Source: a bacterium
Lineage (GTDB): Bacteria; SM23-81; DAOVCL01
NCBI GenBank assembly: GCA_029932675.1
Contig: JAOZPP010000036.1
Location: forward strand, 1 to 30,277
Reading direction: 5' to 3'
Length of the DNA stretch: 30,277 bases
In this document: positions 2,505 to 22,069 of the stretch, piece by piece
How positions within the stretch are numbered: position 1 is the stretch's first letter
How the letters are laid out: each line of letters starts with the position of its first letter
Notes under the pieces: model-generated
What the model was told of the DNA's origin: nothing
Databases searched by the model: none
The model's input: only the letters and a program-made list of their open reading frames with translations
Position numbers and translations under genes: made by a program

Positions 2505-2695
2505 TCACCGGGGAAACGAGGATAGAAGAGGTATTGGAGGAATATCCGCAAACGGTGAGGGTTTTCACTAAATTTGGCCTTCCCTGTTTTGTCTGTGGGG
2601 AACCAGCCTGGGGAACGGTAGGTGATATTGCTTCCCGCTATGGAGTAGACTTAGATGAGCTCTTGGTAGCCCTTAACCAAGCCAAAGGAGGCTAA
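2501..2695 (+). CDS. DUF1858 domain protein (CxxC)
   Basis: The 64-residue protein fits the DUF1858 family of small helical domains. These occur alone or fused to ScdA/hemerythrin and redox proteins. The family hallmark 'YPQTVRVFTKFGLPCFVCG' includes C29-x-x-C32, and the C-terminal 'DIASRYGVDLDELLVALN' is a short helix. The Cys pair may bind a metal or act in redox chemistry, but the role is not established. The ATG overlaps the PilZ stop (ATGA), making it the third gene of the operon. Its TAA overlaps the TAG of pilR on the opposite strand, so the two operons converge with no space between them. Confidence 0.85.
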   Translation: MITGETRIEEVLEEYPQTVRVFTKFGLPCFVCGEPAWGTVGDIASRYGVDLDELLVALNQAKGG

Positions 2696-5755: not shown

Positions 5756-6955
5756 TCAGTGGATAGCCCCAATGAGATCAAACATGGGAAGGTACATCGA
5801 GATCAGGATGAACCCGATGACTATTCCCATAACCACTATCACCACTGGCTCTATTATAGAGGTGAGAGCACCCACGGCGGCATCAACCTCATCTTCATAG
5901 AAATCTGCTACCTTACCCAACATCTCGTCAAGGCCTCCCGTCTTCTCCCCCACAGAGATCATCTGGACTACCATTGGGGGGAATACCCCAGTATCCTTCA
6001 GGGGCTGCGCAATGGTATCCCCCTGGGCAATGGCAGTAACCGCCCGCCGGATGGCGTTGTAGATAACTTTGTTTCCCGCTGTTTTGGCGGTGATCTCCAA
6101 GGAATCCAGAATGGGAACCCCACTCTGTAAGAGCGTCCCCAAGGTGCGACTGAACCTGGCAATTATGCTCTTGCGCAGTAGATTCCCAATTATGGGGATC
6201 TTGAGTTTGAACCTATCGATGGCCAGCTTCCCAGAGGGGGTCTTATTGAGCCAGCGGAAACCTATCCCCAGTCCAATCAGGGCCACGATTCCGATGATGA
6301 AGTTAGACCTCAAGAAAGCACTTAAGCCCAAAACCATCTTAGTGGGAAGGGGTAGCTCAGCACCAAAACCTTGGAAGAGCTTGGCAAAAACCGGAACGAT
6401 AAAGGTAACCAAAAAGAGAGTAGCCCCGGTGGCCACCACGCTAATCACTGCTGGGTAGTACATCGCCCCCTTGATCTTCCTCCGAAGGGCATCGACCTTC
6501 TCCCTATAGGTCGCCAACCTCAAGAGGATCGTATCCAGAGCTCCCCCAACCTCCCCAGCTTCTACCATATTGATGAAGAGTTCATCGAAGATCTTCGGAT
6601 GCTTGCTCAGGGCCTCGGCCAAAGTTGAACCACTCTGCACCCTCTCCTTGACATTATTCAGGGCCTTCTTCAAACTAAGGTTCCCCGTCTGTTCGGAGAG
6701 GACATTCAAGGACTCCACCAAGGGGAGTCCAGCCTCAATCATTGTGGCGAACTGTCTGGCCATCCGAGAAATCTCCGTGGACTTAACCCCCCGACCAATA
6801 TGGATGTGGATCTCCTTGGGCTTAGCCCTGGCCTCGGTGACCAACACCCTCTTCTTCCTGAGAACCCTCCGCACCTCATCCTTGGAGCGGGCGGTTATCT
6901 CCCCACTCACTTCCACTCCGGAGAGGGTCTTTCCTACATATTCAAAAACAGGCAA
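5756..6955 (-). CDS. pilC: Type IV pilus inner-membrane platform protein PilC
   Basis: The 399-residue protein belongs to the PilC/GspF family, the inner-membrane platform that couples the PilB and PilT motors to pilin assembly. The N-terminus 'PVFEYVGKTLSGVEVSGEI' is the usual cytoplasmic lead-in. Two GspF repeats follow ('FATMIEAGLPLVESL' and 'FSRTLGTLLQSGVPIL'), with long hydrophobic segments after each, one at the extreme C-terminus. The start is TTG at 6955: the strong AAAGGAGGT lies five bases upstream, whereas the next in-frame TTG (6973) would place that ribosome site inside the coding region. It follows pilB and pilT, so the motor, retraction and platform genes are together. No pilin, secretin or alignment (pilMNOPQ) genes are in the window. 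Confidence 0.95.
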   Translation of the reverse strand: MPVFEYVGKTLSGVEVSGEITARSKDEVRRVLRKKRVLVTEARAKPKEIHIHIGRGVKSTEISRMARQFATMIEAGLPLVESLNVLSEQTGNLSLKKALNNVKERVQSGSTLAEALSKHPKIFDELFINMVEAGEVGGALDTILLRLATYREKVDALRRKIKGAMYYPAVISVVATGATLFLVTFIVPVFAKLFQGFGAELPLPTKMVLGLSAFLRSNFIIGIVALIGLGIGFRWLNKTPSGKLAIDRFKLKIPIIGNLLRKSIIARFSRTLGTLLQSGVPILDSLEITAKTAGNKVIYNAIRRAVTAIAQGDTIAQPLKDTGVFPPMVVQMISVGEKTGGLDEMLGKVADFYEDEVDAAVGALTSIIEPVVIVVMGIVIGFILISMYLPMFDLIGAIH

Positions 6956-7084
6956 GGCATACCTCCTTTTCAACTACTAATTGTAGAATCAGCTTGATCA
7001 CCGCGGGGTAGGCAGTGAGTCCTTTCCTTATACCCTCTCTAGTTAAATACTTGATCTGTAAGGCTCTGTATCTTATGGGTTAAC

Positions 7085-8152
7085 CTAAACTGCCCGCCTC
7101 CGCACCAACATCTCCTTTAGTTCCTGTGGATTTGTGGAACGAGTAAGTGCATCCTCTATGCTTATCTTCCGCGCCAGGTGGAGCTCCATTAGGGACTGAT
7201 TCATCGTCCTCATCCCATACTTCTGGCCTGCCTGGATGAGGCTGTATATCTGATGAATTTTGTCATCCCGGATCATCGCCCTTACCGCAGGGGTACAGAC
7301 CATCACCTCTGTGGCTAACACCCTTCCTCCCCCAATCCGCGGAATGAGCTGCTGAGAGACAACTGCCTGGGTCACAAAGGAGAGCTGTATCCTCACCTGC
7401 TCCTGCTTCTCCTTAGGAAATACATCGATTATCCTCTTAATAGACTCTATTGCCGAACCAGTGTGGAGGGTGGCAAAGGCCAGATGACCCGTCTCGGAGA
7501 TGGTCAAGGCCGATTCCATAGTCTCCAGATCCCTCATCTCCCCGATCATCACCACATCTGGGTCTTGCCTGAGGGCATACTTTAAGGCCTGGGCAAATGA
7601 CTCGGTATCCGCCCTAACCTCCCTTTGATTTATTAGGCAGTTGTTGTGTTTGTGGAGGTATTCAATGGGGTCTTCCACGGTAAGGATATGCAGTTTCCTT
7701 TCCCTGTTTATCCTATCCAGAATAGCAGCAAGGGTGGTGGATTTCCCTGATCCAGTGGGGCCAGTAATTAGGACAAGGCCATGAGGGAGGTAGGCAAGAT
7801 CAGCAACCTGCTTGGGGATTCCCAACTCCTCGAACGAGCCTATTTCAAAGGGAATCTGTCTGATGGCCGCGGCGACGCATCCCCTTTGCAAAAAGATGTT
7901 GCACCTAAACCTCGATTTGCCCTCCAGACCAAAGGAGAGGTCGAGTTCCTTGTTCTCCTCGAACCTCTGCTTCTGTTTTTCGGTCATCATACTGTAGGCA
8001 AGCCTCTTGGTATCCTCTGGGTTTAGAGGCGGGTATTGGGATCTGACCAGGCTTCCATCCACCCTAAACATCGGAGGAGCACCTACTGTGAGATGGAGGT
8101 CAGAGGCCTTAAGCCTAAACATCTCCTCCAGTAAGTCCCTTAAAGTTAACAA
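7085..8152 (-). CDS. pilT: Type IV pilus retraction ATPase PilT
   Basis: The 355-residue hexameric ATPase powers pilus retraction and so twitching motility. Visible elements are the N-terminal 'LLEEMFRLKASDLHLTVG', Walker A 'GPTGSGKS' (131-138), the Asp box around 'TVEDPIEY', Walker B 'DPDVVMIGEMRD' (197-208), the His box 'LAFATLHTG', and 'VRAMIRDDKIHQI', a variant of the AIRNLIRE retraction motif. Length is normal for PilT. The start is TTG at 8152 behind AAAGGAGGGA. It lies 67 bp downstream of pilB and 129 bp upstream of the chosen pilC start. In Myxococcus, PilT localisation is governed by MglA, whose homologue is encoded a few genes upstream. Confidence 0.95.
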   Translation of the reverse strand: MLTLRDLLEEMFRLKASDLHLTVGAPPMFRVDGSLVRSQYPPLNPEDTKRLAYSMMTEKQKQRFEENKELDLSFGLEGKSRFRCNIFLQRGCVAAAIRQIPFEIGSFEELGIPKQVADLAYLPHGLVLITGPTGSGKSTTLAAILDRINRERKLHILTVEDPIEYLHKHNNCLINQREVRADTESFAQALKYALRQDPDVVMIGEMRDLETMESALTISETGHLAFATLHTGSAIESIKRIIDVFPKEKQEQVRIQLSFVTQAVVSQQLIPRIGGGRVLATEVMVCTPAVRAMIRDDKIHQIYSLIQAGQKYGMRTMNQSLMELHLARKISIEDALTRSTNPQELKEMLVRRRAV

Positions 8153-8219: not shown

Positions 8220-9914
8220 TCATTGGTTGCTCGCCGTCTCCCCCAAGACCTCCTCCACCGTTGTTATCCCCTTCTTCAGCTTCTCTAAGGCCGCTTCCCT
8301 TAGGGTGAGCATCCCCTCTTCCCGCGCGGCTACCTGAATCTCCTGGGAGGACTTGCCTTCCAATATTAGCCTCTCTATCTTACCCGTTATCGGCATAACC
8401 TCATAGGCTGCCGTACGACCAGAGAAACCAGTATTATTACAGGCTGGACACCCCTTCCCCTTATAAAATTCCAACCCCTTCAGCTCTTCTGAGGAGAGGC
8501 CCAACCTCTGGAGGATCTCGTCGGAGACCTCCACCTTCTCCTTACAATGTTCGCATATCTTCCGGAAAAGCCTCTGGGCAATAATCATCCTCACCGATGA
8601 GGCAACCAGAAAAGTGGGAACCCCCATATCTACCAACCTATTGATCGTGCTGGGGGCATCATTTGTGTGGAGGGTACTAAAGACCAAGTGTCCAGTTAAG
8701 GCAGCCCGAATGGCGATTTCAGCCGTCTCTAAATCCCTTATCTCACCTACCATAATCACATCTGGATCCTGACGGAGGAAGGAGCGGAGGCTGGTGGCAA
8801 ATGTTAAGCCTATCTCCTGGTGCATCTGAACCTGATTTATCCCCTCGATATTGTACTCCACAGGGTCCTCTGCAGTCATTATGTTCACATCGGATTTGTT
8901 TAACTGGCTTAGGGCTGAATAGAGCGTAGTGGTCTTTCCACTTCCCGTGGGGCCGGTAACCAAGATCATCCCATAGGGCTGATGGATGGCGTAATCAAAG
9001 AGCTGCAACGAGCGTTCGGGGAAGCCGAGTTTGGTCAGATCGAGCATTAGGCTCTTCGGGTCCAAAATCCTCATCACTACCTTCTCCCCAAATATAGTGG
9101 GAATGGTGGAGACCCGTAAATCGATCTTCCGCCCCCCCACCTTCACCTTTATCCTCCCATCCTGAGGCCTCCTCCTTTCCGATATGTCCAAGTTAGCCAT
9201 TATCTTTATCCTGGAGACCACAGCAGCCCTCAATTTATAAGGGAGGGGGGCCATCTCCTGCAGGGTTCCATCTATCCTATACCTCACCCGCAGTCTTTTT
9301 TCATAGGTCTCTATATGGATATCACTTGCTTTCCGCTTTATGGCATCTGTAATCAGACCATCAACTAACCTCACTAAAGGTTTGTCCTCAATAGCCGATT
9401 TCAGTTCCTGCTCATCGAGGCTTTCCTCCTCCACAATCTCCAGGTTCTCCATATCGAGGTCCTCCATTAACCTGGAGAGGGACTCTGAGTCATCATAATA
9501 GTGATCTAAAGCGTTTTTTATATCATTTTCATTGCTAATGACCAGTTGCACATTAAATCCGGTGATGAACTTGATCATATCCATCACGAATATGTTCTCC
9601 GGATCCGATATGGCCACAATTAAGGTCTTTCCCAGTTTGCTAATAGCGATGACATTGAACTTGCGCGCTATATCCACAGGGATAAGCTTCACCACCTCGG
9701 GGTTAAGCTCGATCTCTGTCAGATTGAGACTACCGATATTTAGCTGACGCCCCAGAAATTCGGTAATGACGTTCTCATCCTTCACCGCCCCCATCTCTAC
9801 CAAGATCTGACCTATCTTCCCACCCTTCTCCTTCTGGATGGAGAGGGCCTTCTCCAGTTGTTCCTGGGTTATCTTCCCTGCCTTCACCAGCAGACTACCT
9901 AATTTGCTGGCCAA
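8220..9914 (-). CDS. pilB: Type IV pilus extension ATPase PilB
   Basis: This 564-residue GspE/PilB ATPase drives pilin polymerisation. The N-terminus is MshEN-like: two similar units at residues 4-27 and 33-57 ('KLGSLLVKAGKIT' and 'KIGQILVEMGAV') are separated by five residues, as in the c-di-GMP-binding MshE N-domain. Both begin with Lys where the MshE motif has Arg. The core has 'SDIHIE', Walker A 'GPTGSGKT' (321-328), Walker B 'DPDVIMVGEIRD' and a four-Cys zinc site (C454-x2-C457, C489-x2-C492). The TTG start at 9914 follows GGAGGAG. It lies after mglB, placing the polarity switch directly before the motor genes. Confidence 0.95.
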   Translation of the reverse strand: MASKLGSLLVKAGKITQEQLEKALSIQKEKGGKIGQILVEMGAVKDENVITEFLGRQLNIGSLNLTEIELNPEVVKLIPVDIARKFNVIAISKLGKTLIVAISDPENIFVMDMIKFITGFNVQLVISNENDIKNALDHYYDDSESLSRLMEDLDMENLEIVEEESLDEQELKSAIEDKPLVRLVDGLITDAIKRKASDIHIETYEKRLRVRYRIDGTLQEMAPLPYKLRAAVVSRIKIMANLDISERRRPQDGRIKVKVGGRKIDLRVSTIPTIFGEKVVMRILDPKSLMLDLTKLGFPERSLQLFDYAIHQPYGMILVTGPTGSGKTTTLYSALSQLNKSDVNIMTAEDPVEYNIEGINQVQMHQEIGLTFATSLRSFLRQDPDVIMVGEIRDLETAEIAIRAALTGHLVFSTLHTNDAPSTINRLVDMGVPTFLVASSVRMIIAQRLFRKICEHCKEKVEVSDEILQRLGLSSEELKGLEFYKGKGCPACNNTGFSGRTAAYEVMPITGKIERLILEGKSSQEIQVAAREEGMLTLREAALEKLKKGITTVEEVLGETASNQ

Positions 9915-10039: not shown

Positions 10040-10516
10040 CTAATCCCCAAATATCTGGTCAAGCCTCTCCTCGGCTTGGTTGGCGAATCCAACCTCAATC
10101 CCCTCCCCCTCTTCAAACTTAGCAGTGAGTATCTCCTCCAATTCCCCTTGGGCTTCCCGCACATAAAGCCTGACCATCCCAATGGTTGTTCGGTCATCGA
10201 AGACAACGCCCAAAATGCTCCTTTCACCTACTAAAGAAACTAAAATGTTATCCTTCTTCCCTTCGTGGAAGAGAACACTAAACTCCGATTCTCCCAAGAG
10301 CTTGGCCATCTCCTTAGTGGAAGCGAAACTCCCAGCCAAGAGGGCGGCCAAACTGGTGGTATCCAGGGAGTGGGTGAAACCCTGTTTGGCGATCAGATAG
10401 CCATCCTTGTCAACCAGAAGTGAACACCTTGCCTCACTCTCCCGTAAAAGCTTCTTTAATACCCCGTTTATTCTCTCAAATTGCCCCTTATAGATAACCG
10501 ATATTCCCTCATTCAC
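10040..10516 (-). CDS. mglB: MglB-type Roadblock/LC7 protein (probable GAP for MglA)
   Basis: The 158-residue Roadblock/LC7 protein closely resembles Myxococcus MglB as I recall it. Shared features are 'LLVDKDGYLIAKQG', 'DTTSLAALLAG', 'AKLLGESEF', 'FHEGKKDN' and 'RTTIGMVRL', the same length, and an acidic C-terminus ending '-DQIFGD'. MglB is the dimeric GTPase-activating protein that stimulates MglA and marks the lagging pole. The start is GTG 10516, because GAGGAGG lies five bases upstream; the ATG at 10543 would put that site inside the frame. It follows mglA by 74 bp and precedes pilB. Of the seven Roadblock proteins here, it is the only one I can assign to a named subfamily. Confidence 0.9.
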   Translation of the reverse strand: MNEGISVIYKGQFERINGVLKKLLRESEARCSLLVDKDGYLIAKQGFTHSLDTTSLAALLAGSFASTKEMAKLLGESEFSVLFHEGKKDNILVSLVGERSILGVVFDDRTTIGMVRLYVREAQGELEEILTAKFEEGEGIEVGFANQAEERLDQIFGD

Positions 10517-10541
10517 TTTTGCCTCCTCTCTTGGACGTAGC

Positions 10542-10568
10542 ATTATAGGGATTAGAGCACCTCAGCAA
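10542..10568 (-). promoter_or_regulatory. Candidate internal sigma-70 promoter before mglB
   Basis: A perfect -10 box (TATAAT, 10542-10547 on the minus strand) lies about 25 bp upstream of the mglB GTG. The best -35 candidate, TTGCTG at 10563-10568, is poor and the spacer is only 15 bp. It could give extra expression of mglB-pilB-pilT-pilC, but this is weakly supported. Confidence 0.3.
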
Positions 10569-10590
10569 GTCCCCTCTAAGGGGTTACCCT

Positions 10591-11418
10591 TCATTTCTTA
10601 GATCTCCAAAACCTGAAGAGCCGCCAGAGGAAAAAACCCCTCCTCTGCGGGCTCTCTACTTGTTTCCTCACCGGCATGGGCTTCTGCGGGGGGTGAAAAC
10701 TCAAGGGGCTTATCCGGTGGGGATGTAATTCCTCACCCGGGGCCGCTCTGGCAACTGGAGAAGGGTGATGGGGCTCCACCTGTTTAGGGGAGACGGGTTT
10801 AGGAGGGGGAGGAGGACTGGGAGGGGGCATCGCATCCCGGTGAGTCGTCTTCTCTAAAACCAGCTTTGAAATGGATTTGAGGGTCTCAAAAACCCCCACT
10901 CCTCTGTTGGCCACCGCCTCAAAGAAGGGGACATCCCTCCAGTTGAGGAGTTTATTGAGCTCGTCTACAGATGCTCTATCCGGGAGGTCGCGCTTATTGT
11001 ATTGGAAAACCAGGGGAATATCCTCCAGCCTATACCCATATTCGCTCAGGTTTTCCTCTAAATTTTGCAGGCTTTCTAAATTCTCCTTTAGCTTATCCCT
11101 TTGCGAATCAGCCACAAAGACTATCCCATCAGCCCCCCGGAGGACAAGCCTCCGTGTAGCATTGTAGTAGACCTGTCCCGGGACGGTGTATAACTGAAAC
11201 TTGGTAGCAAAACCTTGAATTGAACCCAAATCTAAAGGGAGAAAATCAAAGTAAAGGGTCCTATCCTTCTCCGTAGCTAAGGAGATTAGCTCCCCCCGCC
11301 GCTCCCGGGGTATCTTCTGATGAACCCACTGGAGATTGGTCGTCTTCCCGGAAAGGCCGGGACCATAATAGACTATCTTACACGAAATCTCCCTAAAGGC
11401 ATAATTTATGGAGACCAA
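10591..11418 (-). CDS. mglA: MglA-type Ras-like GTPase with proline-rich, basic-aromatic C-terminal tail
   Basis: Residues 1-190 are a bacterial small Ras-like GTPase of the MglA family: P-loop 'GPGLSGKT' (19-26), switch I with Thr54 in '[11 protein letters not shown]', G3 '[12 protein letters not shown]' with Gln82 at the catalytic position known from Myxococcus MglA, '[12 protein letters not shown]', and G4 'NKRD' (141-144). MglA in the GTP state binds effectors at the leading pole and switches pilus polarity. Unlike the roughly 195-residue classical protein, this one is 275 residues. Residues 196-258 are rich in Pro and His, and the last 16 ('[17 protein letters not shown]') look like a basic, aromatic, potentially membrane-binding helix. 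Start TTG 11418 overlaps the preceding Roadblock gene by 13 bp, with GGGGAGGA upstream. Confidence 0.93.
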
Positions 11419-11771
11419 TTCTCTTCCTCCCCAAGTTTGGCATTTAGCCTCTGAAGGGTGTTCTTTAATTCCAGCCAGACAAGCCCCAAGTTGGCCTCCG
11501 GTTCAGTAAGTGCAACCAATAGCCCAAGCTCGGCCCCCACAAAGAGCACCCTCCCCCACTGACCAGAGACCATCCCTTTGATCACCGGCCCAGAATCCAA
11601 CTTGGAAAGGGATCTCTCTGCTGTCTTCAGAAGGGAAACCGTCTCCGCGGCAACGACCTCTTGGTCTATCCCCTCTTCCACCTCAGAGGCAATTACCATT
11701 CCATCTGTCCCCACGACCATGCTTCCCCTCACCCCACTTAATTTATTCAACTGTGCCAGAGCTTCTTCCAT
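11406..11771 (-). CDS. Roadblock/LC7 domain protein
   Basis: The 121-residue single-domain protein has the Roadblock pattern: an N-terminal helix '[14 protein letters not shown]', a strand pair '[16 protein letters not shown]', a central helix of small residues ('[14 protein letters not shown]'), then '[16 protein letters not shown]' and a final helix. It overlaps mglA, so the two are likely coupled in translation and perhaps partners. It begins two bases after the TPR-Roadblock stop codon (TAAA-ATG). Roadblock proteins dimerise and bind Ras-like GTPases as GAPs or scaffolds. Whether this one acts on MglA is inference. It is distinct from the MglB encoded on the other side of mglA. Confidence 0.85.
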
Positions 11772-11772
11772 T

Positions 11773-12546
11773 TTAACTCTTCCTCAAGGTTTCAATCGCC
11801 TTCCCCACCCTGAGTTTGAGGGAAGCGGGGGAAACATTCTTCTCGGTAAGGAGAACCAGATAGCCAAAGGAGGAGTCGAAAAGCCAGAGTCTATGGGCCA
11901 CAGTAGTGAGCTCTATCTCCTGCGTGGGCCCAAACTCCATCTTTTTCATCCCGTTCTCTGCGGAGTTGTAGATAGCTGCTCCGGCTACAGCCAACTCCTC
12001 GGGCCTCCCCTCCCCCCAATCTCCCCCAAAGAGGAGCCCCTCCCTATCCACCAAGGCCACCCCCTCTACCCCTGGCTCCTTATAGAGGCTGGCTATCACC
12101 TCAGCCATTAGCCTTCCCCCCTTCCTCTGGGACCTAACCCTCTCCTCAGCCACCCTGAGAAGTGCGATCACCTGCTCATTTGCGGGCTGAGAAAGGGAAA
12201 GCTCTTCCAATAACTCTTTGGCCTGCTCTATCTTACCCCTTTTGAGAAGGAGACTAGCCCTCAATAGACCCACACTTCCTGAGGGGAGACCGTGTTCACT
12301 GACCCAGTCGACCTCATATTCGGCCTCATCGAGAAGGTTCATATCCAAGAGTATCTTCGCCATAACTAAGTGGGCTAAGCCATAATGGGGGTGAACCTTA
12401 AGTCCTGCTTCACAGACCTTATGGGCTTTGTCCAGCATCCCCTTCTTTCGGTAGGCATCAGCCAAGGAGGCAAAGATCGTCGAGTGGGGATTTTGGGCTA
12501 AAATCCTCTGACAGGTAAATATCCTTTCTTCAAGCTCGTCCAACAC
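11773..12546 (-). CDS. TPR protein with C-terminal Roadblock/LC7 domain
   Basis: The 257-residue fusion has two parts. Residues 1-140 form about four tetratricopeptide-like helix pairs ('IFASLADAYRKKGMLDKAHKVCEAGL', cut here into 'ASLADAYRKKGMLDKA', and 'AHLVMAKILLDMNLLDEA'). Residues 143-257 form a Roadblock domain ('VEGVALVDREGLLF', 'AVAGAAIYNSAENGMKKM', 'FGYLVLLTEKNVS'). TPR repeats bind protein partners, so this could link the GTPase system to another component. The frame opens at GTG 12546; TTG at 12543 is a close alternative with better spacing from AAGGAG. It overlaps the HAMP gene by 17 bp and is followed immediately by the single-domain Roadblock gene. No partner can be named. Confidence 0.8.
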   Translation of the reverse strand: MLDELEERIFTCQRILAQNPHSTIFASLADAYRKKGMLDKAHKVCEAGLKVHPHYGLAHLVMAKILLDMNLLDEAEYEVDWVSEHGLPSGSVGLLRASLLLKRGKIEQAKELLEELSLSQPANEQVIALLRVAEERVRSQRKGGRLMAEVIASLYKEPGVEGVALVDREGLLFGGDWGEGRPEELAVAGAAIYNSAENGMKKMEFGPTQEIELTTVAHRLWLFDSSFGYLVLLTEKNVSPASLKLRVGKAIETLRKS

Positions 12547-13240
12547 TCGCTCCTTTCCCCAACCTCTCTAAGGCCGTTTGAAGGCTAATCCTCAGCCTAT
12601 CGGTTGCCTGGGCTAACCTTCCTATCTCATCTTCGGAATCTATGGTTATTCCCTCCTCCATACTCCCCAAGCTCACCCTCTCGGTAACCTGGGCCAACCA
12701 GAGGAGCCTCTTAGACAACCTCTGGGCAAAGAGGAAGATCAATATCCAAGAGAAGAGAAGGGCCCCTCCAAGAAACCCCATTATCCAGTAATCCATTGAT
12801 TTCTGAACCAGAGGAGAGAGGCCGAGATAAACGGTTCCCAAGGTCCCTTCCAGAATAGGGATGGTAAGCTCATATCTCCCTTTGGGGGTAACCTGGGAGC
12901 TACCCTCACCGTTCCCCTCGGTGATGAGTTCAATCCTCCTCTGATCCCGCAGGGTGTTGGCCCTGACCCTCCCTTGCTGATCCGTGATCAGGATATAGGA
13001 AACCCCCTTTATGGCGGCAAACCTTTCTACCAATTCCCTCAGTTCTATATCCGATCCTCGAACCAAGTATCCCTCGCTCTGTAGGGCCAGATCCTTCCCC
13101 AACACCACCCCCCTCTCCCGCAAATTTTCTGCCAATATCCTCTGGTGGGTGTATCTATATCCCACCAGACCAGAGAGGGCCACAAGGAAGGTTAAACCCA
13201 AACCAAGGAGGGTTATCTTTCCTCTTAGTCCTAATCTCAT
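12530..13240 (-). CDS. Membrane receptor with periplasmic sensor and HAMP, no output domain
   Basis: The 236-residue protein has a TM helix at about 8-28 and a periplasmic region of about 135 residues containing a Cache/PAS-like stretch ('GVSYILITDQQGRVRANTL' and 'IPILEGTLGTVYLGLSP'). A second TM helix lies at about 165-188, followed by a HAMP domain ('WLAQVTERVSLGSM', 'SEDEIGRLAQATDRL') at the C-terminus. It resembles the front half of a chemoreceptor or histidine kinase, but it stops right after HAMP. Output would then have to pass to a partner protein, plausibly the overlapping TPR-Roadblock product. ATG 13240 is chosen because it forms an ATGA overlap with the upstream stop; the frame is open further upstream to 13357, but that part lies inside the neighbouring gene. 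Confidence 0.83.
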   Translation of the reverse strand: MRLGLRGKITLLGLGLTFLVALSGLVGYRYTHQRILAENLRERGVVLGKDLALQSEGYLVRGSDIELRELVERFAAIKGVSYILITDQQGRVRANTLRDQRRIELITEGNGEGSSQVTPKGRYELTIPILEGTLGTVYLGLSPLVQKSMDYWIMGFLGGALLFSWILIFLFAQRLSKRLLWLAQVTERVSLGSMEEGITIDSEDEIGRLAQATDRLRISLQTALERLGKGASVGRA

Positions 13241-14370
13241 CTTTCTCTCCCGGAAAATTCTACCGGAATAGTGGTCCAAAACCTTACCCTCCTCCCCTGA
13301 TAACAACCAGGGGAAAACCTCCACCCCTTCACAAATTCCAGAGCTATACCAGCACATTTCTCATCAAGATTAGAGCTGAGCATAGCCGTCTCCGTAACTT
13401 TCCCTTCTTCATCGACCCAAGCCTTGACGATCACCTCCCCCTTACACCTTCCATCAATCGGAGCTGGCGGTTGCTCGATGACCCGGGGGAGGCTGTCTAA
13501 AATTCCCACGGCAACAGGGTCTGGCTCCTTCTCAATTAGCTCTGCGGACCCGGCAACTGAATCAGGTGAGAAGGCAAGGGAAACAAAGTCAACCTCCCCT
13601 GAATTGGCATCCTCTTCATCATCATATATCCTTTCATCGATCTGGGATGGTTGGTTTCCTGTCCAGAAGTTCCCTTTAGCCTGAATTTTAAGGGAGGAAA
13701 GGTTGTAAATATCATACTTGAGGTTATCGGAGATCAGATTGCCCCCATCTTCCCTTGAGGAACCAAGGAAAGGGCAAGATTGATCGAGGATGACAATCCC
13801 ATATGGGTTTTCCCTGACCTGACATCCCTTGACCACAGGGCGGGAGAGGTATTTGCAAATGATCCCTACCTCACCGTTTCCCCATATCTGGCAGCCTTCA
13901 ACTAAAGGGGCTGAACGATTAATACAGCTTATTCCACATCTTAAATTGTGACAGAAGCTGTCGTTTTTTAGCAAAGGGGAGGAGGCCAAACAATAGACTC
14001 CATAGTTGCCCCATTCAATTAAGCAGTTCTCTAAGACAGAGCCAGAATCTGAGGCCCTGAATTCAACCCCCCACCAATCCCCCATCTGAGGATTTGCCGA
14101 AGCGGAGGTAAAGCTAATCTTCTCTTTATTCCCCCCCCTGGCTATTAGCTTCCCCAGTACGAGTATCTTTAACCTCTCATCCTTAGGGACGAACTTGACA
14201 ACTGAACCAGGGGCTATCCGCAAGGTTACCCCTGAGGGTATAATTAGGGTGGACCCTAACACCACCTCACCCTTCCAGGCAGCATCTCCCCTTAATACCA
14301 TCGATCCCCCACTTCCTCCCCCCAAAAAAGCTATCAATAGGATACTACTAATCACCAGTGGCTTTCTCAT
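13237..14370 (-). CDS. Exported beta-helix protein with C-terminal TonB domain
   Basis: The 377-residue protein starts with a signal peptide ('MRKPLVISSILLIAFLGGG', possibly cleaved near 'GDA' at 28-30). A right-handed beta-helix follows at about 35-260, with 'GVTLRIAPGSVVKF', 'SVLENCLIEWGNYGV', 'SAPLVEGCQIWGN' and 'GNFWTGNQPSQI', resembling the T9SS gene at 21-869. An acidic/Pro linker then leads to a TonB C-terminal domain at 302-377 ('GEVIVKAWVDEEGKVTETAMLSS', shown here as 'VDEEGKVTETAMLSS', then 'GWRFSPGCYQGRRVRFWTTIPVEF'). TonB-C normally contacts outer-membrane receptors, but this protein lacks the usual TonB membrane anchor. It is joined by ATGA overlaps to the genes on both sides, so it belongs to the Roadblock operon. 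Function unknown; a periplasmic or outer-membrane role is inferred. Confidence 0.82.
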   Translation of the reverse strand: MRKPLVISSILLIAFLGGGSGGSMVLRGDAAWKGEVVLGSTLIIPSGVTLRIAPGSVVKFVPKDERLKILVLGKLIARGGNKEKISFTSASANPQMGDWWGVEFRASDSGSVLENCLIEWGNYGVYCLASSPLLKNDSFCHNLRCGISCINRSAPLVEGCQIWGNGEVGIICKYLSRPVVKGCQVRENPYGIVILDQSCPFLGSSREDGGNLISDNLKYDIYNLSSLKIQAKGNFWTGNQPSQIDERIYDDEEDANSGEVDFVSLAFSPDSVAGSAELIEKEPDPVAVGILDSLPRVIEQPPAPIDGRCKGEVIVKAWVDEEGKVTETAMLSSNLDEKCAGIALEFVKGWRFSPGCYQGRRVRFWTTIPVEFSGRER

Positions 14371-14948
14371 TCCAATCCTCTAAGGGTTCCCCTTATAAAC
14401 TCCTCCCTCTTCTCCGCGGTGGGGATCTCCTCGGAAATCTCCCTCACAATCCTTTCTCTCTCCTCGGAAGTGAGAGGCTCAGGCCAATTTTTCCTCTTCT
14501 CCTCCAAAATGTAGCCAGCTATGGGGCCCACTGCCCGTTTTAGTTCTTTTTCCAAGGTCATCCACCACTGAGCATCCCCAACCTCCAATACCTCCTTCTG
14601 GCTGACCTCTCCTTGGAACTGATTCCTCAAATCTTGAATCTGTAGCCCGGTGGAAAGCCTAAGGAGAACAGGGTTTATCTTTGGGGTGTGAAAAAGACAC
14701 AAAAACCCCCTTTCCAAGTTCTTGATGAGAGCCCTCTCCTTCCCGAAATTGATCTCTACTTCCTCCACCTTCTCCCCTATTCCCTCAAGACCAAAGATAG
14801 ACCTGGCCAAAATGGATGTGGCCTTAGCTACTTTACCTTCCCTTCCCCCCTCCCGCAGGGAGGAGGCCAAAAGCCTACCTTCCCGGTCACTGAGGAAGAC
14901 CTCAATTATCCCAGGAATGCTCCCTATTCTCTTTACTATCTCCTCCAT
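14367..14948 (-). CDS. Roadblock/LC7 protein with C-terminal 'GPIA' helical domain
   Basis: Residues 1-110 match the Roadblock fold ('MEEIVKRIGSIPGIIEVFLSD', shortened: 'RIGSIPGIIEVFLSDREG', 'AKATSILARSIFG', 'GFLCLFHTPKINP'). Residues about 125-193 form a second, helical domain with 'LEKELKRAVGPIAGYILEE' and 'EERERIVREISEEIP...KREEFIRGTL'. This resembles small C-terminal domains carrying a GPIA motif that occur on some bacterial kinases and cyclases, whose function is not known to me. ATG 14948 is preferred: AAAGGGTGA sits upstream and the start matches the sister protein at 11771. GTG 14957 is the alternative. The gene overlaps both neighbours. Role inferred only from context. Confidence 0.8.
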   Translation of the reverse strand: MEEIVKRIGSIPGIIEVFLSDREGRLLASSLREGGREGKVAKATSILARSIFGLEGIGEKVEEVEINFGKERALIKNLERGFLCLFHTPKINPVLLRLSTGLQIQDLRNQFQGEVSQKEVLEVGDAQWWMTLEKELKRAVGPIAGYILEEKRKNWPEPLTSEERERIVREISEEIPTAEKREEFIRGTLRGLE

Positions 14949-14949
14949 C

Positions 14950-16176
14950 TCATTCACCCTTTAAGAAGGTTCTCGCCTCTTCTTCCAACCTCCCCCTCTC
15001 AGCTCCTTCCTCAAGGAGGAGACCAAAATAGAGGCACCTCCCTTCCATGATGAGGAGCCTACCATCCTTTACCTCCACCCAGCAAGACTCTGGCTTGCCC
15101 AACTCCAGAAGATCGGAGGCCTGAGAGATCGCCCCCCCTAAATAGAGCGAAGTTGCCCCCCAGAGGTCGGTAAGGCGGGAGGAGTCTGGACCCTCTAAAC
15201 TTGACCCTAAGACAACTCCATCCTTGGCCACAACAACAGCCCCCTTTACCCCTTCTATTCCTTTGAGCTTATAGGAAAGGTCGGCATATTTGCTCCTCCC
15301 TTCCCCCTGAGGAAGACCTTCTGGCGGGGCTACTTCTCGAGGTGAAGGCTGTTGTTCGGAGGAGGGTTCCTTCTGGGGATCTCCCTCTATGGAGCGGTTC
15401 GGCTCATCTATGGTTGATTCCTCTATGTGAGGGGCCGCGTCTACCCTATCCTCTTCATACTTTATCTGCTCGGCTTTCATATTCTCATCAAGGATTTGAC
15501 TCCCCCGAAGAAGGAGGGCTTGCCAGTCAGCATAGATCGTCCTGGGGGGAGGCTGGAATTGATCCCTTGTCTCAAACTTACCCTCTTGCCAACCCAATAA
15601 CTTGAAGAATGCTTCCTCGCCCACCAATTCCCCACATCGGGCATGGGTTATCTCACCGCCCTGAAAGTAGATCTCCCCTTCCTCTCCATTAAAGGAGACC
15701 TTCAGGGCACAAGTAAGTTTCCCCAGACAGTTTATCTGGATTATGTCATTAAGTTGGAGGCCATTTCCCTTCTCTTGAATGGCCTTCTTAGATGGCCTTC
15801 TCTTCTTTAATGCCTTGTGAAGTAACTCCTCCATCTCCTCCATCTCAAATGGCTTCTCTATATAATAGAGCGAACCAGAGGTAACGGCTTTCTGCTGAAT
15901 CTGTGGGGATCCATAAGCAGTCATCACAATCACATCAATGGAAGGATAGGTAGCTTTTATCCTACTCAAGAGCTTCAATCCATCCATCCCCGGCATCCTG
16001 ATATCGGTGATCACCAGGTCAATTGGATTCTTCTCCAGGACCTCCAGCGCCTCATCGCCAGTGGTCGCCGTGAGGACTTCCAAGTTTCCATGGGCCTTGG
16101 AGAGGCTCTTAGACATCCCCCAAGTGAGCGTCTCCTCATCATCCACAATCAGAACTCTGTTTTTAGCCCTACTCAT
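14950..16176 (-). CDS. Response regulator: REC + DUF4388 + Roadblock/LC7
   Basis: This 408-residue protein combines three domains. Residues 1-125 are a receiver with acidic pocket 'VDDEE', phospho-acceptor Asp58 ('VITDIRMPGMDG') and 'MTAYG...EKPF'. Residues about 138-235 fit DUF4388/PatA-type ('LQLNDIIQINCLGKLT', 'GEIYFQGGEITHARCGELVGEEAFFKLLGW', cut: 'GEITHARCGELVGEEA'), a module found in gliding and heterocyst regulators. A charged, Pro/Glu-rich linker of about 65 residues leads to a Roadblock domain at about 305-405 ('GVKGAVVVAKDGVVLGSSL'). It could bring phosphorylation control to the GTPase/Roadblock complex, in a way analogous to RomR in Myxococcus but with different architecture. The start has AGGAGGGG five bases upstream. 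It follows the previous gene by 37 bp. Confidence 0.87.
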   Translation of the reverse strand: MSRAKNRVLIVDDEETLTWGMSKSLSKAHGNLEVLTATTGDEALEVLEKNPIDLVITDIRMPGMDGLKLLSRIKATYPSIDVIVMTAYGSPQIQQKAVTSGSLYYIEKPFEMEEMEELLHKALKKRRPSKKAIQEKGNGLQLNDIIQINCLGKLTCALKVSFNGEEGEIYFQGGEITHARCGELVGEEAFFKLLGWQEGKFETRDQFQPPPRTIYADWQALLLRGSQILDENMKAEQIKYEEDRVDAAPHIEESTIDEPNRSIEGDPQKEPSSEQQPSPREVAPPEGLPQGEGRSKYADLSYKLKGIEGVKGAVVVAKDGVVLGSSLEGPDSSRLTDLWGATSLYLGGAISQASDLLELGKPESCWVEVKDGRLLIMEGRCLYFGLLLEEGAERGRLEEEARTFLKGE

Positions 16177-16213
16177 CTATTCCCCTCCTAAACTTAGCCT
16201 TAAGGAGATGGCC

Positions 16214-16831
16214 TCAAACATAGACTTGAACCACATCTCCCTCTTTGGCACCTAACCTCCTGGCATCATGGGAAATCATTCTCACCACCTTTCCCAATCC
16301 CTTTTTATGCATAACCCTAAAAACCCTTACCTTCCCCCCCTTACGCACAGAGGCTCGGTGAACCTTTCCCTCCCCCTCCAGGCTCCACCCCTTTACTAGC
16401 TGTTCATCTACCCAGATCTGTCCCCCCTTCAGGGCCAAACCCTTCATATACTCCACCTTCAACTCCTGGGGCTCTATCCGGGGAGCCTTAGCCGATTCCA
16501 AGGACTGCTCTATCCTCTTGGCAGCCACATCTACAGTAAGGTTTAAAAGGGGGATGTTAATATCTTTACTGCACAATATGACTAACATCCCAGATCCAAT
16601 AACCCTAGCTATTACCCTCCCTTTGGCAAAGCAAAGGTCAAACTCCTCAGGGTTAACCTGGGCAAACCTCAGCGACCTCACCGTCTGAATTATCTCCCAG
16701 CTCACAGCCTTAAGGGACTCCTCGGGATAATTATTCTTGTCCACCGAGGAGAGTATTTCGCCTTTTCCATCGGCCACAAAGGAACCCTCCACCCCAACCA
16801 TAGCATTTATGTCCTTCAAGATCCCTTTCAT
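16214..16831 (-). CDS. Roadblock/LC7 protein with unassigned C-terminal domain
   Basis: The 205-residue protein begins with a Roadblock domain (1-115: 'MKGILKDINAMVGVEGSFVAD' type start, shortened 'DINAMVGVEGSFVADGKG', and 'GSGMLVILCSKDINIPLLNL'). The last 80 residues form a basic, beta-rich domain ('GKVHRASVRKGGKVRVFRV', 'GKVVRMISHDARRLGAKEGDVVQVYV'). The final 'ARRLGAKEGDVVQV' phrase recalls beta-barrel domains with an 'LGLKDGD-V' hairpin, as seen in AbrB-like and molybdopterin-dinucleotide-binding folds, but I do not assign it. It is joined by an ATGA overlap to the first gene of the operon. Binding partner and ligand are unknown. Confidence 0.78.
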   Translation of the reverse strand: MKGILKDINAMVGVEGSFVADGKGEILSSVDKNNYPEESLKAVSWEIIQTVRSLRFAQVNPEEFDLCFAKGRVIARVIGSGMLVILCSKDINIPLLNLTVDVAAKRIEQSLESAKAPRIEPQELKVEYMKGLALKGGQIWVDEQLVKGWSLEGEGKVHRASVRKGGKVRVFRVMHKKGLGKVVRMISHDARRLGAKEGDVVQVYV

Positions 16832-17163
16832 CTCCTCTCTTTACCTCCCATTCCTGCCTCGACCCGATCCTCTACAAGTGATAAGGATGCCTCAGGTTTG
16901 AGGGATAGGCCAAGGTAGTTTCCCTCCATATCATAGATCAACATCCTCCTGCCCGAGCCATGAAAGGATCCCTTTTCGAACTTCCCCAACTGCAACTTCT
17001 CCCCCACCTTTGAGGCCATCTGGGCAACAAATACAGCAAGTGCTGCCGTTTCTTCGGGATATCCCTTTCCACCTTGACCCAAAACAACTCCTTCCGGGGA
17101 GGAAAAGACCGTCTCCTTCACCTCCTCCAGTTGGGATAGGGATTGGGTTATCTTATCGAACAT
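16828..17163 (-). CDS. Roadblock/LC7-like protein, first gene of the operon
   Basis: The 111-residue protein shows the Roadblock outline: an N-terminal helix 'MFDKITQSLSQLEEVKETV', a beta pair 'FSSPEGVVLGQG', a central Ala-rich helix 'ETAALAVFVAQMASKVGE', a beta pair 'GRRMLIYDMEGNYLGLSLKP' and a final helix. It is divergent, so the assignment rests on length and pattern as well as on neighbours. AGGAGGT lies six bases before the ATG, and a consensus sigma-54 promoter lies about 60 bp upstream. Its stop overlaps the next start (ATGA). As promoter-proximal gene it would be the first translated component of the block. Confidence 0.75.
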   Translation of the reverse strand: MFDKITQSLSQLEEVKETVFSSPEGVVLGQGGKGYPEETAALAVFVAQMASKVGEKLQLGKFEKGSFHGSGRRMLIYDMEGNYLGLSLKPEASLSLVEDRVEAGMGGKERR

Positions 17164-17239: not shown

Positions 17240-17357
17240 TTTCTCCATTTGGAGTCATTTAAATAAATCCCCTATTTTCAAGAGGATATAGAACCTCATC
17301 TGGTTTTCAAATCTTTCGCCTGATTGAAATTAGGCCATCTGCATAGGGGTATAAAAA

Positions 17358-17385
17358 GAAAATCCAGCTTAATAGCTGGATTTTC
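17358..17385 (-). terminator. Rho-independent terminator after comB
   Basis: GAAAATCCAGCT (17358-17369) and AGCTGGATTTTC (17374-17385) form a perfect 12-bp stem with a four-base loop. On the minus strand the stem ends in TTTTC and runs on into TTTTTAT. It lies about 50 bp past the comB stop and separates that transcript from the sigma-54-driven block. On the plus strand it also ends in TTTTC, so it could work both ways. Confidence 0.85.
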
Positions 17386-17434
17386 TGAAGGTTAAATGAA
17401 GGAAACCTTTCTGTGCGAAAATCGAACACTACCT

Positions 17435-19584: not shown

Positions 19585-20952
19585 TCAAGGTTTGGCCGTG
19601 ATTGAAGTGTAGTCGTAGATGACCTTCGGCCGGCCAACCATATAACCGATTACCCCTCCTAAGATAGCCGGCAAACCAAAGTTAAAACCAAACATCTCTA
19701 TACAGATCACGATGCTCGCGATGGGAACATTTAGTATTGCCCCTAAGGAACCTGCTATCCCAACAACGATGAGAGCTAAGTGCATACCGGAATCGGTCAC
19801 CCCAAAGGAAGTAGCCACCAGATCACCGGCCAAAGCCCCCAGCATTATAGAGGGAAAGGTAAAGCCAGCGCTCCCCCCAGAACCAATGGTCAGGGCAGTA
19901 GTGGCCATCTTCCCCAGCACAAGAAGGACTATGGAGAAAAGGGCAAAGGTGGTAAACGTGGATCTTGGCTGGAGGATCTCCTTAAGGGTGTCAGCACCCA
20001 CCCCGATCACCTCTATCCCCACAACCAAACCAAGGAGTCCACAACCAATTCCCCCCAAGGCGGGCTTGAGGCCATCGCTGATCCTTACCCTCTCAAAGAA
20101 GGCAGATACCTTCTCGTAAATGGTGATAAAAAGGAGACCTATCCAACCACTGAGGATAGCGGCCAGCAAGAAGAGGGGGATCTCACTGGGGCGAAAGGAA
20201 AAAGGTCTTCTCCCCCAGGAAGGGCCAAAATCGGTAATCAAACCAAACATCGTGTACCCTAAAGCGCTGGATAAGATCGCTGGGAACAACTTCCGATAGT
20301 TTATGGAAGCAGCATAGAGTATCTCCACTGCAAAGATCCCACCCCCCAACGGGGCCTTCAACAGGGCCCCCAACGCTCCAGCTACCCCACACACTGTCGC
20401 TGTATCCAACTCCTCCTTCCTTAGGCTAAAAGGAGGAGAAAGGGTCTTTAGTTTCCTCGCCAAGAATGATCCAACCCCACCATTTACCAAGGCCATTGGG
20501 CCAACAAAACCTCCACTCCCCCCCAAACCAAGGGTAAATAGCCCAGCGAGGTATTTAAGAAGCGTAAGCCTCAGGGGGACAAACCCACCCTTTTCGTTGA
20601 CAGCGCGGATGTAGCTGGGTACTCCTTCACCCCTTGCCCCAGGTTCCATCCGATAAAAGAGCAGGCCTATTATTAGCCCTCCCAAAGCTGGCCCAGCGTA
20701 AACGAAGAGCTCCCGTGCTGGGAGCTGATAGAAAAAGAAGACGCCCCTCTTAAAAAGGTAAACCACCACTCCACTCGCCGTGCCAATGACGAAAGAGGTT
20801 AACGACCACCTCAGTATATAATTAAGGGTGCCTTCACCTTTTATCCCGAAAACATTCCACCGCTCACCAACGACTACATTCTTCATCGTGCGCATAAGGT
20901 GATACAACCCAATGGATGGCAAAAGAAGCGGGACTAAGGTCCTACCCTCCAT
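19585..20952 (-). CDS. ClC-family chloride channel/transporter
   Basis: The 455-residue membrane protein belongs to the ClC family of chloride channels and H+/Cl- antiporters. The selectivity-filter regions can be recognised: 'GLGGSGGFVGPMALVNGG' (the GSGIP-like and GREGP-like zone), 'KAPLGGGIFAVEIL', and 'GSGGSAGFTFPSIMLGA' (GxFxP region). Around ten or more hydrophobic segments are visible. No C-terminal CBS domains are present. The frame opens at ATG 20952, inside the end of the upstream regulator gene; ATG 20895 (residue 20) is an alternative. Ribosome sites are weak for both. Whether it exchanges protons cannot be told here. Its link with the kinase upstream may be only co-transcription. 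Confidence 0.9.
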   Translation of the reverse strand: MEGRTLVPLLLPSIGLYHLMRTMKNVVVGERWNVFGIKGEGTLNYILRWSLTSFVIGTASGVVVYLFKRGVFFFYQLPARELFVYAGPALGGLIIGLLFYRMEPGARGEGVPSYIRAVNEKGGFVPLRLTLLKYLAGLFTLGLGGSGGFVGPMALVNGGVGSFLARKLKTLSPPFSLRKEELDTATVCGVAGALGALLKAPLGGGIFAVEILYAASINYRKLFPAILSSALGYTMFGLITDFGPSWGRRPFSFRPSEIPLFLLAAILSGWIGLLFITIYEKVSAFFERVRISDGLKPALGGIGCGLLGLVVGIEVIGVGADTLKEILQPRSTFTTFALFSIVLLVLGKMATTALTIGSGGSAGFTFPSIMLGALAGDLVATSFGVTDSGMHLALIVVGIAGSLGAILNVPIASIVICIEMFGFNFGLPAILGGVIGYMVGRPKVIYDYTSITAKP

Positions 20953-22069
20953 TAGTAACTTCCCTCTCCGGCAAGTAAAGGGAGACCTTTGTTCCCTTGT
21001 TGACCTGGCTGGTTATCTCCAAAATTCCATCGTGTTCTTTAACGATGCGCTCCGCAACAGTAAGCCCGAGCCCCACACCCACCGTCTTTTTAGTGGTCAC
21101 AAAGGGTTCCTTGACAATGGGCAAAAGTTCCTTTGGGATTCCTCTCCCATTATCGCGGATCTCTATAAGTATATAGCCCCTCCCCCTTACAACTCCTCTT
21201 CTCACTTGAATCTGGATCTTACCCCCTTCTCCAATCGCTTCAAAGGAGTTCTGCAGGAGGTTCACCAAAGCCTGTTCAAGCCTATAGGGATCTCCATGAA
21301 CGATAAGGGACTCTTCTGGGAGGTGAAGAGAAACCGCCTCTGCTACCGACTTTTCACTTGCCCCAACGAGGGAAATCACCTGCTGCAAAACCGTTTGCAG
21401 GGAGATAAGTTCCTGCCCACTGGTATTGAAATCAGGACGAATATATTCATGGAGCAGTTTGGTAACCTCCTGCATCTGATGGGCAGCACTCCGCGCTTTA
21501 AGGAGGCCTCTGAGCACCGGATCACCTTTGTCAAGTTGACTGATGGCTAACTCAAGGTAACCAGTAACTCCAGTCAACAGGTTGTTAAAATTGTGGGCAA
21601 TACCTTTGGTAAGGGTTTTTATGCTTGTCGCCCGCTGGGACTCCAGAAGCGCCTGCTGATAGGAAAGGTTCTCCTCATAGAGGCTCTTCATCCTCAATTG
21701 AGTCCTCACCCTGGCAATAAGTTCACTGATATCAAAGGGCTTACCTACATAATCGCTGGCCCCAAGTTCAAGGCCAAGTAGTTTGTCCCTTTTTCCCGTC
21801 TTGGCAGTTAAAAATATCACCGGAACAAGTTTGAAGCGGGGATCATCCTTTATCCTTCGGCAGGTTTCGAATCCATCCATTCTAGGCATGATTACATCTA
21901 ACAAAAACAGGTCGGGAGTCTCCTCCTCAACAAGCTCCAACACCTGAATCCCATCTTTAGCTTCCAATATCCTATAACCCTCTTTCTGCAATGCTCTCCG
22001 TAAGAGAGTAAGATTGAGGGGCGAGTCATCAGCAACGAGGATTAACTGAGAATCACTATTTTCCGCCAT
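20942..22069 (-). CDS. REC-histidine kinase fusion (receiver first)
   Basis: The 375-residue soluble protein starts with a receiver domain (Asp58 in 'LFLLDVIMPRMDG', Lys in 'VGKPF'). A linker helix leads to a HisKA-type dimerisation region with His159 in 'KGIAHNFNNLLTGVTG', and then to an ATPase domain ('NLLQNSFEAIGEGG', 'DNGRGIPKE', 'GLGLTVAERI'). The HNFNN H-box marks the same kinase subgroup as the next gene. Receiver-kinase proteins without a DNA-binding output relay phosphate from another kinase or respond to it. The neighbouring V4R-PAS kinase, 98 bp upstream on the same strand, is a candidate partner. The start has AAGGAAG before ATG. It overlaps clc by 11 bp. Confidence 0.9.
   Translation of the reverse strand: MAENSDSQLILVADDSPLNLTLLRRALQKEGYRILEAKDGIQVLELVEEETPDLFLLDVIMPRMDGFETCRRIKDDPRFKLVPVIFLTAKTGKRDKLLGLELGASDYVGKPFDISELIARVRTQLRMKSLYEENLSYQQALLESQRATSIKTLTKGIAHNFNNLLTGVTGYLELAISQLDKGDPVLRGLLKARSAAHQMQEVTKLLHEYIRPDFNTSGQELISLQTVLQQVISLVGASEKSVAEAVSLHLPEESLIVHGDPYRLEQALVNLLQNSFEAIGEGGKIQIQVRRGVVRGRGYILIEIRDNGRGIPKELLPIVKEPFVTTKKTVGVGLGLTVAERIVKEHDGILEITSQVNKGTKVSLYLPEREVTNGG

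Follow-up and report, generated by a model that had tools for sequence, protein, structure and literature searches.

Why should a single MglA GTPase be surrounded by seven Roadblock/LC7 proteins in a gene run that leads straight into the pilus motor genes? The question is raised by a 30,277-nucleotide stretch of bacterial DNA (GTDB lineage Bacteria; SM23-81; DAOVCL01), positions 1-30,277 of contig JAOZPP010000036.1 in assembly GCA_029932675.1, which we call the window. Among its open reading frames, ten minus-strand genes running from 17163 to 10040 encode MglA and nine other proteins; a Roadblock domain occurs in seven of these nine, the exceptions being a beta-helix/TonB_C protein and a Cache-HAMP receptor. 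We believe, at a probability of roughly 55%, that these genes make up a composite operon that signals to a type IV pilus, in which two Roadblock heterodimer input cassettes have been added to an MglA/MglB-pilus module. The basis for this reading comes from sequence, synteny, trees and fold: a polarity core (MglA, MglB, R3 and a TPR-Roadblock protein) is joined to pilB-pilT-pilC-pilS-pilR and is conserved in Zixiibacteriota, and with it stand two pairs of Roadblocks of two types, A and B, and an output-less Cache-HAMP receptor of the kind found beside A-B pairs elsewhere. Read along the minus strand, the genes are as follows.

16828-17163, minus strand: R10, stand-alone type-A Roadblock of pair 1, first gene of the cluster (clade A; Pfam Robl match in the orthologue; independent profile)
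16214-16831, minus strand: R9, type-B Roadblock of pair 1 with a C-terminal basic beta domain (independent profile; model; clade B)
14950-16176, minus strand: REC-PATAN-Robl, a receiver, PATAN (DUF4388) and type-A Roadblock fusion of pair 2 (Pfam; phospho-acceptor residues; clade A)
14367-14957, minus strand: R7, type-B Roadblock of pair 2 with a three-helix GPIA domain, overlapping the preceding gene by 8 nucleotides (independent profile; model)
13237-14370, minus strand: right-handed beta helix with TonB_C, probably exported, a putative envelope partner (Beta_helix 9e-14, TonB_C 6.9e-10)
12530-13240, minus strand: Cache-HAMP receptor without kinase or methyl-accepting chemotaxis protein output (sCache_3_2 2.4e-5, HAMP 1.4e-3, both below the Pfam cut-off)
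11773-12546, minus strand: TPR-Robl, a TPR-Roadblock protein of the polarity core (TPR_19 2.1e-11, Robl 1.4e-4; Zixiibacteriota orthologues in the same place)
11406-11771, minus strand: R3, stand-alone Roadblock of the polarity core, directly before mglA (Robl 6.3e-9)
10591-11418, minus strand: MglA GTPase with an 85-residue proline-rich tail (M. xanthus MglA 6h17, E 1.7e-78; motifs kept)
10594-10644, minus strand: C-terminal cationic-aromatic motif of MglA (17 residues), putative membrane anchor (top-scoring 20-mer in 13/13 orthologues)
10040-10516, minus strand: homologue of the GTPase-activating protein (GAP) MglB, with a GTG start preceded by GGAGG (6izw MglB, E 3.7e-34 over 151 residues)
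8220-9914, minus strand: PilB extension ATPase (match to the locus conserved among 12 related contigs)
7085-8152, minus strand: PilT retraction ATPase (T2SSE 1.1e-49)
5756-6973, minus strand: PilC platform protein (T2SSF 3.3e-68)
4043-5683, minus strand: PilS sensor kinase (6TM_PilS 5.3e-10, HisKA, HATPase)
2692-4068, minus strand: PilR sigma-54 regulator (REC, Sigma54_activat 1.2e-70, HTH_8)

Neighbouring reading frames overlap by 4 nucleotides at R10/R9, R7/beta-helix and beta-helix/Cache-HAMP, and by 8-17 nucleotides at REC-PATAN-Robl/R7, Cache-HAMP/TPR-Robl and R3/MglA. The first-pass annotation of this DNA had taken such overlaps to suggest a fixed stoichiometry. The overlaps are present at several junctions, but MglA-MglB (a 74-nucleotide gap) and R9/REC-PATAN-Robl (37 nucleotides) have none, and fixed stoichiometry would be read from the overlaps only. 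The beta-helix/TonB_C gene (13237-14370) is inserted between the type-B Roadblock R7 and the receptor, inside the signalling operon.

Pfam alone would not confirm the count of seven. By hmmscan, only MglB (59.6 bits) and R3 (35.9) exceed the Pfam Roadblock gathering score of 23 bits; REC-PATAN-Robl (22.9) and TPR-Robl (21.9) fall marginally below it, R7 (14.8) and R10 (12.8) lie lower, and R9 (16214-16831) has no Pfam Robl match by this method. A six-frame search of the genome with the Pfam Roadblock profile brings four proteins over the cut-off, and the Pfam matches of REC-PATAN-Robl are Response_reg (1.3e-27), DUF4388 (1.1e-18) and Robl (7.2e-5). An independent Roadblock profile, built without any sequence from the window or the sister species, recovers all seven (MglB 102.8 bits, R3 63.1, TPR-Robl 53.6, R9 35.5, REC-PATAN-Robl 28.5, R7 27.1 and R10 11.2), and the best score among 1000 shuffled versions each of R7, R9 and R10 is 8.1 bits. 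R10 is the weakest of the set; its sister-species orthologue scores 15.6 bits with the independent profile and matches Pfam Robl_LC7 at E=3.8e-4. AlphaFold models, which cover R9 and R7 only among the seven, have the alpha-beta-beta-alpha-beta-beta-beta-alpha Roadblock topology, and their fold matches are MglB, LAMTOR and Asgard Roadblocks at Z about 14-18.6 (at best 18.6 for R9, with Roadblock3/MglB at 17-18.6, and 17.2 for R7, with Roadblocks at 15-17). The first-pass annotation had claimed a Roadblock domain in seven of the nine non-MglA products, and we regard it as confirmed that all seven carry a Roadblock/LC7 domain: the profile finds seven of seven, the models place R9 and R7 in the fold as well, and most of the proteins do not lie outside it. 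The Cache-HAMP protein was considered as an eighth Roadblock (11.6 bits at 12944-13036, 6.7 bits with the independent profile) and rejected.

The seven fall into separate sets: MglB, R3 and TPR-Robl make up the polarity core, and the remaining four form two tandem A-B pairs, R10-R9 (pair 1) and REC-PATAN-Robl/R7 (pair 2). A tree of 77 Roadblock domains groups R10 with the REC-PATAN-Robl domain and R7 with R9, and each group joins one of two neighbouring genes from unrelated genomes. The rows from genome G178 formed long branches and were dropped from a control tree, in which type A still groups with that of genome G133 (99/96) and R7 with R9 (86/91). When nine loci are added, type A (13 rows) is one clade (99/98) and type B (13 rows) another (97/93), and both are recovered in 100% of the bootstrap trees examined. 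The two types differ strongly from MglB in the tree, whose deeper resolution is limited by an alignment of about 110 columns.

Outside the genus, the strongest matches to a type-B profile came from G133, G178 (two), G270, G463 (two), G289 and G151, with a weaker one in G178; the profile worked better than a single-sequence search with one G178 protein, which found few relatives. Type A lies directly upstream of type B in all nine of these first-found loci, three of which had served as seeds (two for the A and B profiles), and in each a PATAN domain is fused to A or encoded in the preceding gene. Nineteen loci were fetched afterwards, of which 14 have A directly upstream and one has a partial A, and a PATAN domain occurs in the stretch for about 14. 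Longest-frame calling was confused by loci of high GC content, and later steps scanned all frames. The A-B cassette is found in at least four phyla (those of the window, G178, G463 and G151), type B being matched in all three genomes examined from the phylum of G151 and in some genomes in the phyla of G178 and G463. In the phylum of G151 the PATAN protein also begins with a receiver, with a PilS-like kinase gene divergent beside it, an arrangement close to REC-PATAN-Robl of the window. A literature search, with subscription journals mostly outside its scope, found no published description of a PATAN/DUF4388-Roadblock A-B cassette and no paper linking Zixibacteria with MglA.

The basic beta domain of R9 is modelled at low confidence (a predicted local distance difference test score of about 46-60). 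Two weak genome matches, to stretches resembling an Asp23-type protein and an ATP-synthase region, were judged to be chance, and a match to G463 type-B tails (E 0.008, probability 5%) is too weak to claim. The GPIA domain of R7 is common to one G178 type-B protein (E 9e-5, probability 59%) and has no match in the G133 or G151 type-B tails.

The receptor in the window ends about 20 residues after HAMP and has no kinase or chemotaxis output. Using a HAMP-tail profile built only from the tails of the window and the sister-species locus L038, we found 11 HAMP-terminal receptors across the 28 A-B loci outside the genus (0.36 Mb); 1.32 Mb of other, control loci contained none. These receptors have a common ending, (D/E)RLRxS(L/M)xxAMxRLG, with variation, and are diverse in the sensor part (dCache, sCache, Tll0287-like, or without a Pfam match).

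The cluster's gene order is kept beyond the window. Locus L038, from a sister species of the same genus (the same genome as G001), has every cluster gene in identical order, and the Zixiibacteriota-labelled loci L039-L049 share the order of a core made up of a PATAN protein, TPR-Robl, a further Roadblock (hydrophobic over an N-terminal stretch in several loci), R3, MglA, MglB, PilB, PilT, PilC and PilS. R3 stands directly before mglA in all loci from L038 to L049, and the TPR-Robl orthologues occupy the equivalent position in the Zixiibacteriota loci, which hold three or four Roadblocks, mostly four, in the stretches examined. Roadblock matches occur in 77 of 80 genomes of the phylum of G012, where the R3-MglB spacing is repeated. 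By Pfam, clusters of at least four Roadblocks appear among 145 diverse genomes only in the window genome, the sister species and G012 (a Zixiibacteriota-type cluster). Given this rarity and the order conserved in the sister species, the cluster is not a product of chance. The linkage to pilB, pilT, pilC, pilS and pilR noted at first pass is present in the window, and as far as PilS it is kept in Zixiibacteriota. A PilM gene is located elsewhere in the genome, so a type IV pilus is likely. The excess of Roadblocks over the known one or two partners, also remarked on at first pass, is conserved as well; a survey of 1,611 prokaryotic genomes found a maximum of two MglB-type Roadblocks per MglA and stated that none of the orphan MglB-family proteins had yet been characterised (PMC4316618). 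In another lineage, locus L139 (genome G067) has TPR-Roadblock and Roadblock genes after pilN-pilO-pilP-pilQ-like and aroC-aroK-aroB-like genes, the names being read from sequence.

MglA matches Myxococcus xanthus MglA (6h17) at 267 bits and keeps the P-loop, DRT arginine, TVPGQ and NKRD motifs. From its sequence the product of 10040-10516 is an MglB GAP homologue: residues 6-158 of 6izw are aligned, including the C-terminal part, and the gene adjoins mglA. In each of the 13 Zixiibacteriota-type MglAs, no 20-mer of the protein's own tail is more cationic-aromatic than the final 20 residues, and tail length across these orthologues ranges from 83 to 457 residues. Such a cationic-aromatic end resembles the membrane anchors of MinD and FtsA, and the layout resembles the Ras hypervariable region. 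Through a putative membrane-binding end, the tail would probably keep the GTPase at the inner membrane. In loci L059, L060, L061, L079, L083 and L097 (mostly Nitrospirota) MglA tails end in KKRWFFFG or in a comparable basic-aromatic sequence, perhaps an independent version of the anchor, and long tails of MglA from Acidobacteriota, Aminicenantes and deltaproteobacteria (e.g. L052, L056, L068 and L112) often end in beta-strand-like sequences (VNIILDVK, YRLDLAIKID). In REC-PATAN-Robl the phospho-acceptor residues of the receiver are intact and DUF4388 is present; the Synechocystis PATAN regulators PixG and PixE bind PilB1/PilC according to passages of PMC12288463 and PMC7690835.

These observations suggest how a composite operon might work. 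Each A-B pair would form a Roadblock heterodimer, as in LAMTOR/Ragulator, and the HAMP receptor would pass an envelope signal straight to the A-B pair via its short conserved C-terminal helix, with no phosphorelay. Phosphorylation of the intact receiver would gate PATAN, which would act on PilB/PilC as in Synechocystis. Roadblock surfaces would couple input to MglA-GTP/MglB through MglB, R3 and TPR-Robl, with the GTPase kept at the inner membrane by its predicted anchor, and the place and timing of pilus extension would then follow several inputs.

Several points weigh against this explanation. The complete seven-Roadblock form is seen in two species of one genus only, four of the 19 later type-B loci have no type-A neighbour, and pair 1 has no PATAN or receptor of its own. 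We infer the A-B heterodimers from adjacency and co-conservation. No mglA was found in the stretches around the 28 other A-B loci, all outside the genus, so an action of A-B pairs on MglA is putative. One family supplies seven of the 11 receptor loci, which reduces the independent count to about five; in the window itself, Cache and HAMP match below the Pfam cut-offs, and one gene separates R7 from the receptor.

The best-surviving alternative, which we consider unlikely, is that the A-B cassettes form a signalling system of their own that merely sits in the same operon, with only MglB, R3 and TPR-Robl acting on MglA. That would explain the missing mglA at the 28 loci and the strong divergence of both types from MglB; it sits poorly with an order and overlapping reading frames kept in both species of the genus, and with cyanobacterial PATAN regulators having documented pilus-motor partners when the motor genes directly follow here. 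We give still less credence to the first-pass proposal that the seven Roadblocks assemble around MglA into a single large hetero-oligomeric platform, summing inputs and flipping pilus polarity. The eukaryotic Ragulator is indeed a multi-Roadblock assembly on a GTPase, and the co-directional, partly overlapping genes are kept in the sister species, but Zixiibacteriota manage with about four Roadblocks, and the cassette to which four of the seven belong is separable, occurring without mglA in the stretches examined at the 28 other loci, so a seven-protein platform around MglA is not supported. What stands of that proposal is a plausible hetero-oligomeric Roadblock assembly, here specified as two A-B pairs. 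Least probable of all is a pilus for DNA uptake or adhesion rather than polar twitching, the Roadblock/MglA module setting pilus number or assembly and not reversals: a comEC-like Competence-domain gene does lie directly upstream of the PATAN/Roadblock/mglA cluster in the two Zixiibacteriota loci tested (L043:4416-6713 and L044:3908-6187), but the upstream neighbours in the window are 2-phosphosulpholactate phosphatase and gcvT genes, not comEC, and MglA and MglB closely resemble the M. xanthus polarity pair.

Within the composite-operon reading, we tentatively put forward a bolder idea, that of an undescribed multi-phylum system in which a receptor ending in HAMP and the conserved tail drives an A/B heterodimer coupled to a PATAN effector, without a kinase or phosphorelay for that input, two such pairs having been captured in this genus by a membrane-anchored MglA for pilus control as a bacterial counterpart of Ragulator. 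If true, an A-B pair with a PATAN effector and a kinase-less receptor would give some orphan MglB-family proteins a testable function, and an envelope signal would have a route to the pilus motor without phosphorylation. It would also suggest a possible origin of multi-Roadblock GTPase regulators such as Ragulator, and with its tail MglA would parallel, in bacteria, the membrane anchoring of Ras.

Around the cluster, a strong terminator-like hairpin with a 13-pair stem and a T run (17357-17386, minus strand) lies between R10 and the 2-phosphosulpholactate phosphatase gene upstream. The window ends (21-869 and 29145-30251) encode two beta-helix proteins that carry Por-type secretion sorting tails. 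There are two YcgR-type PilZ proteins (1827-2504 and 25235-25903); after the second come genes for a PAS kinase, a sigma-54 regulator and a flagellar rod protein, so flagella and cyclic di-GMP control are probably also present in the organism. A hybrid kinase with V4R/XylR_N-like and PAS domains and a C-terminal receiver (22168-24813) adjoins a REC-kinase (20942-22069).

Among known systems, M. xanthus MglA/MglB/MglC with SgmX, FrzS and RomR likewise combines MglA and MglB with another small Roadblock and, in the same pathway, with TPR and receiver proteins. In contrast, the TPR and receiver parts here are fused to Roadblocks, there are seven Roadblocks in a single gene run with pilB/T/C/S/R, and the MglA tail is long and cationic-aromatic at its end. 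The effector SgmX has 14 TPRs and an N-terminal activating part, and its three C-terminal TPRs bind MglA (PMC11580455), whereas TPR-Robl has 257 residues with TPR matches only at residues about 5-138; this is not the SgmX system because the TPR part is too short. Actinobacterial conservons (Cvn/Mfp) also encode a membrane sensor, a Roadblock protein and an MglA-like GTPase together. The receptor here lacks the histidine-kinase domain of a CvnA-type sensor, several Roadblocks and PATAN are present, and no CvnC-type protein was found among the ten gene products scanned; we do not consider the cluster a conservon because it has no kinase-type sensor. LAMTOR/Ragulator ties Roadblocks to a small GTPase as well, its subunits rank near the top in the fold matches of both R9 and R7, and the cluster offers two candidate Roadblock heterodimers. 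Unlike in Ragulator, no p18-like wrapper was identified, the partner GTPase is MglA rather than Rag, and the heterodimers are predicted ones. Cyanobacterial PATAN-CheY regulators (PixG, PixE, LsiR) share a receiver and PATAN linked to the PilB/PilC motor; here these domains are fused to a type-A Roadblock near MglA, whereas the cyanobacterial proteins are described without Roadblocks in those passages of the literature. On our reading the cluster would work like the MglA/type IV pilus system of M. xanthus, but with sensory Roadblock pairs built in, and there is a real chance that their cassette is a new kind of signalling system.

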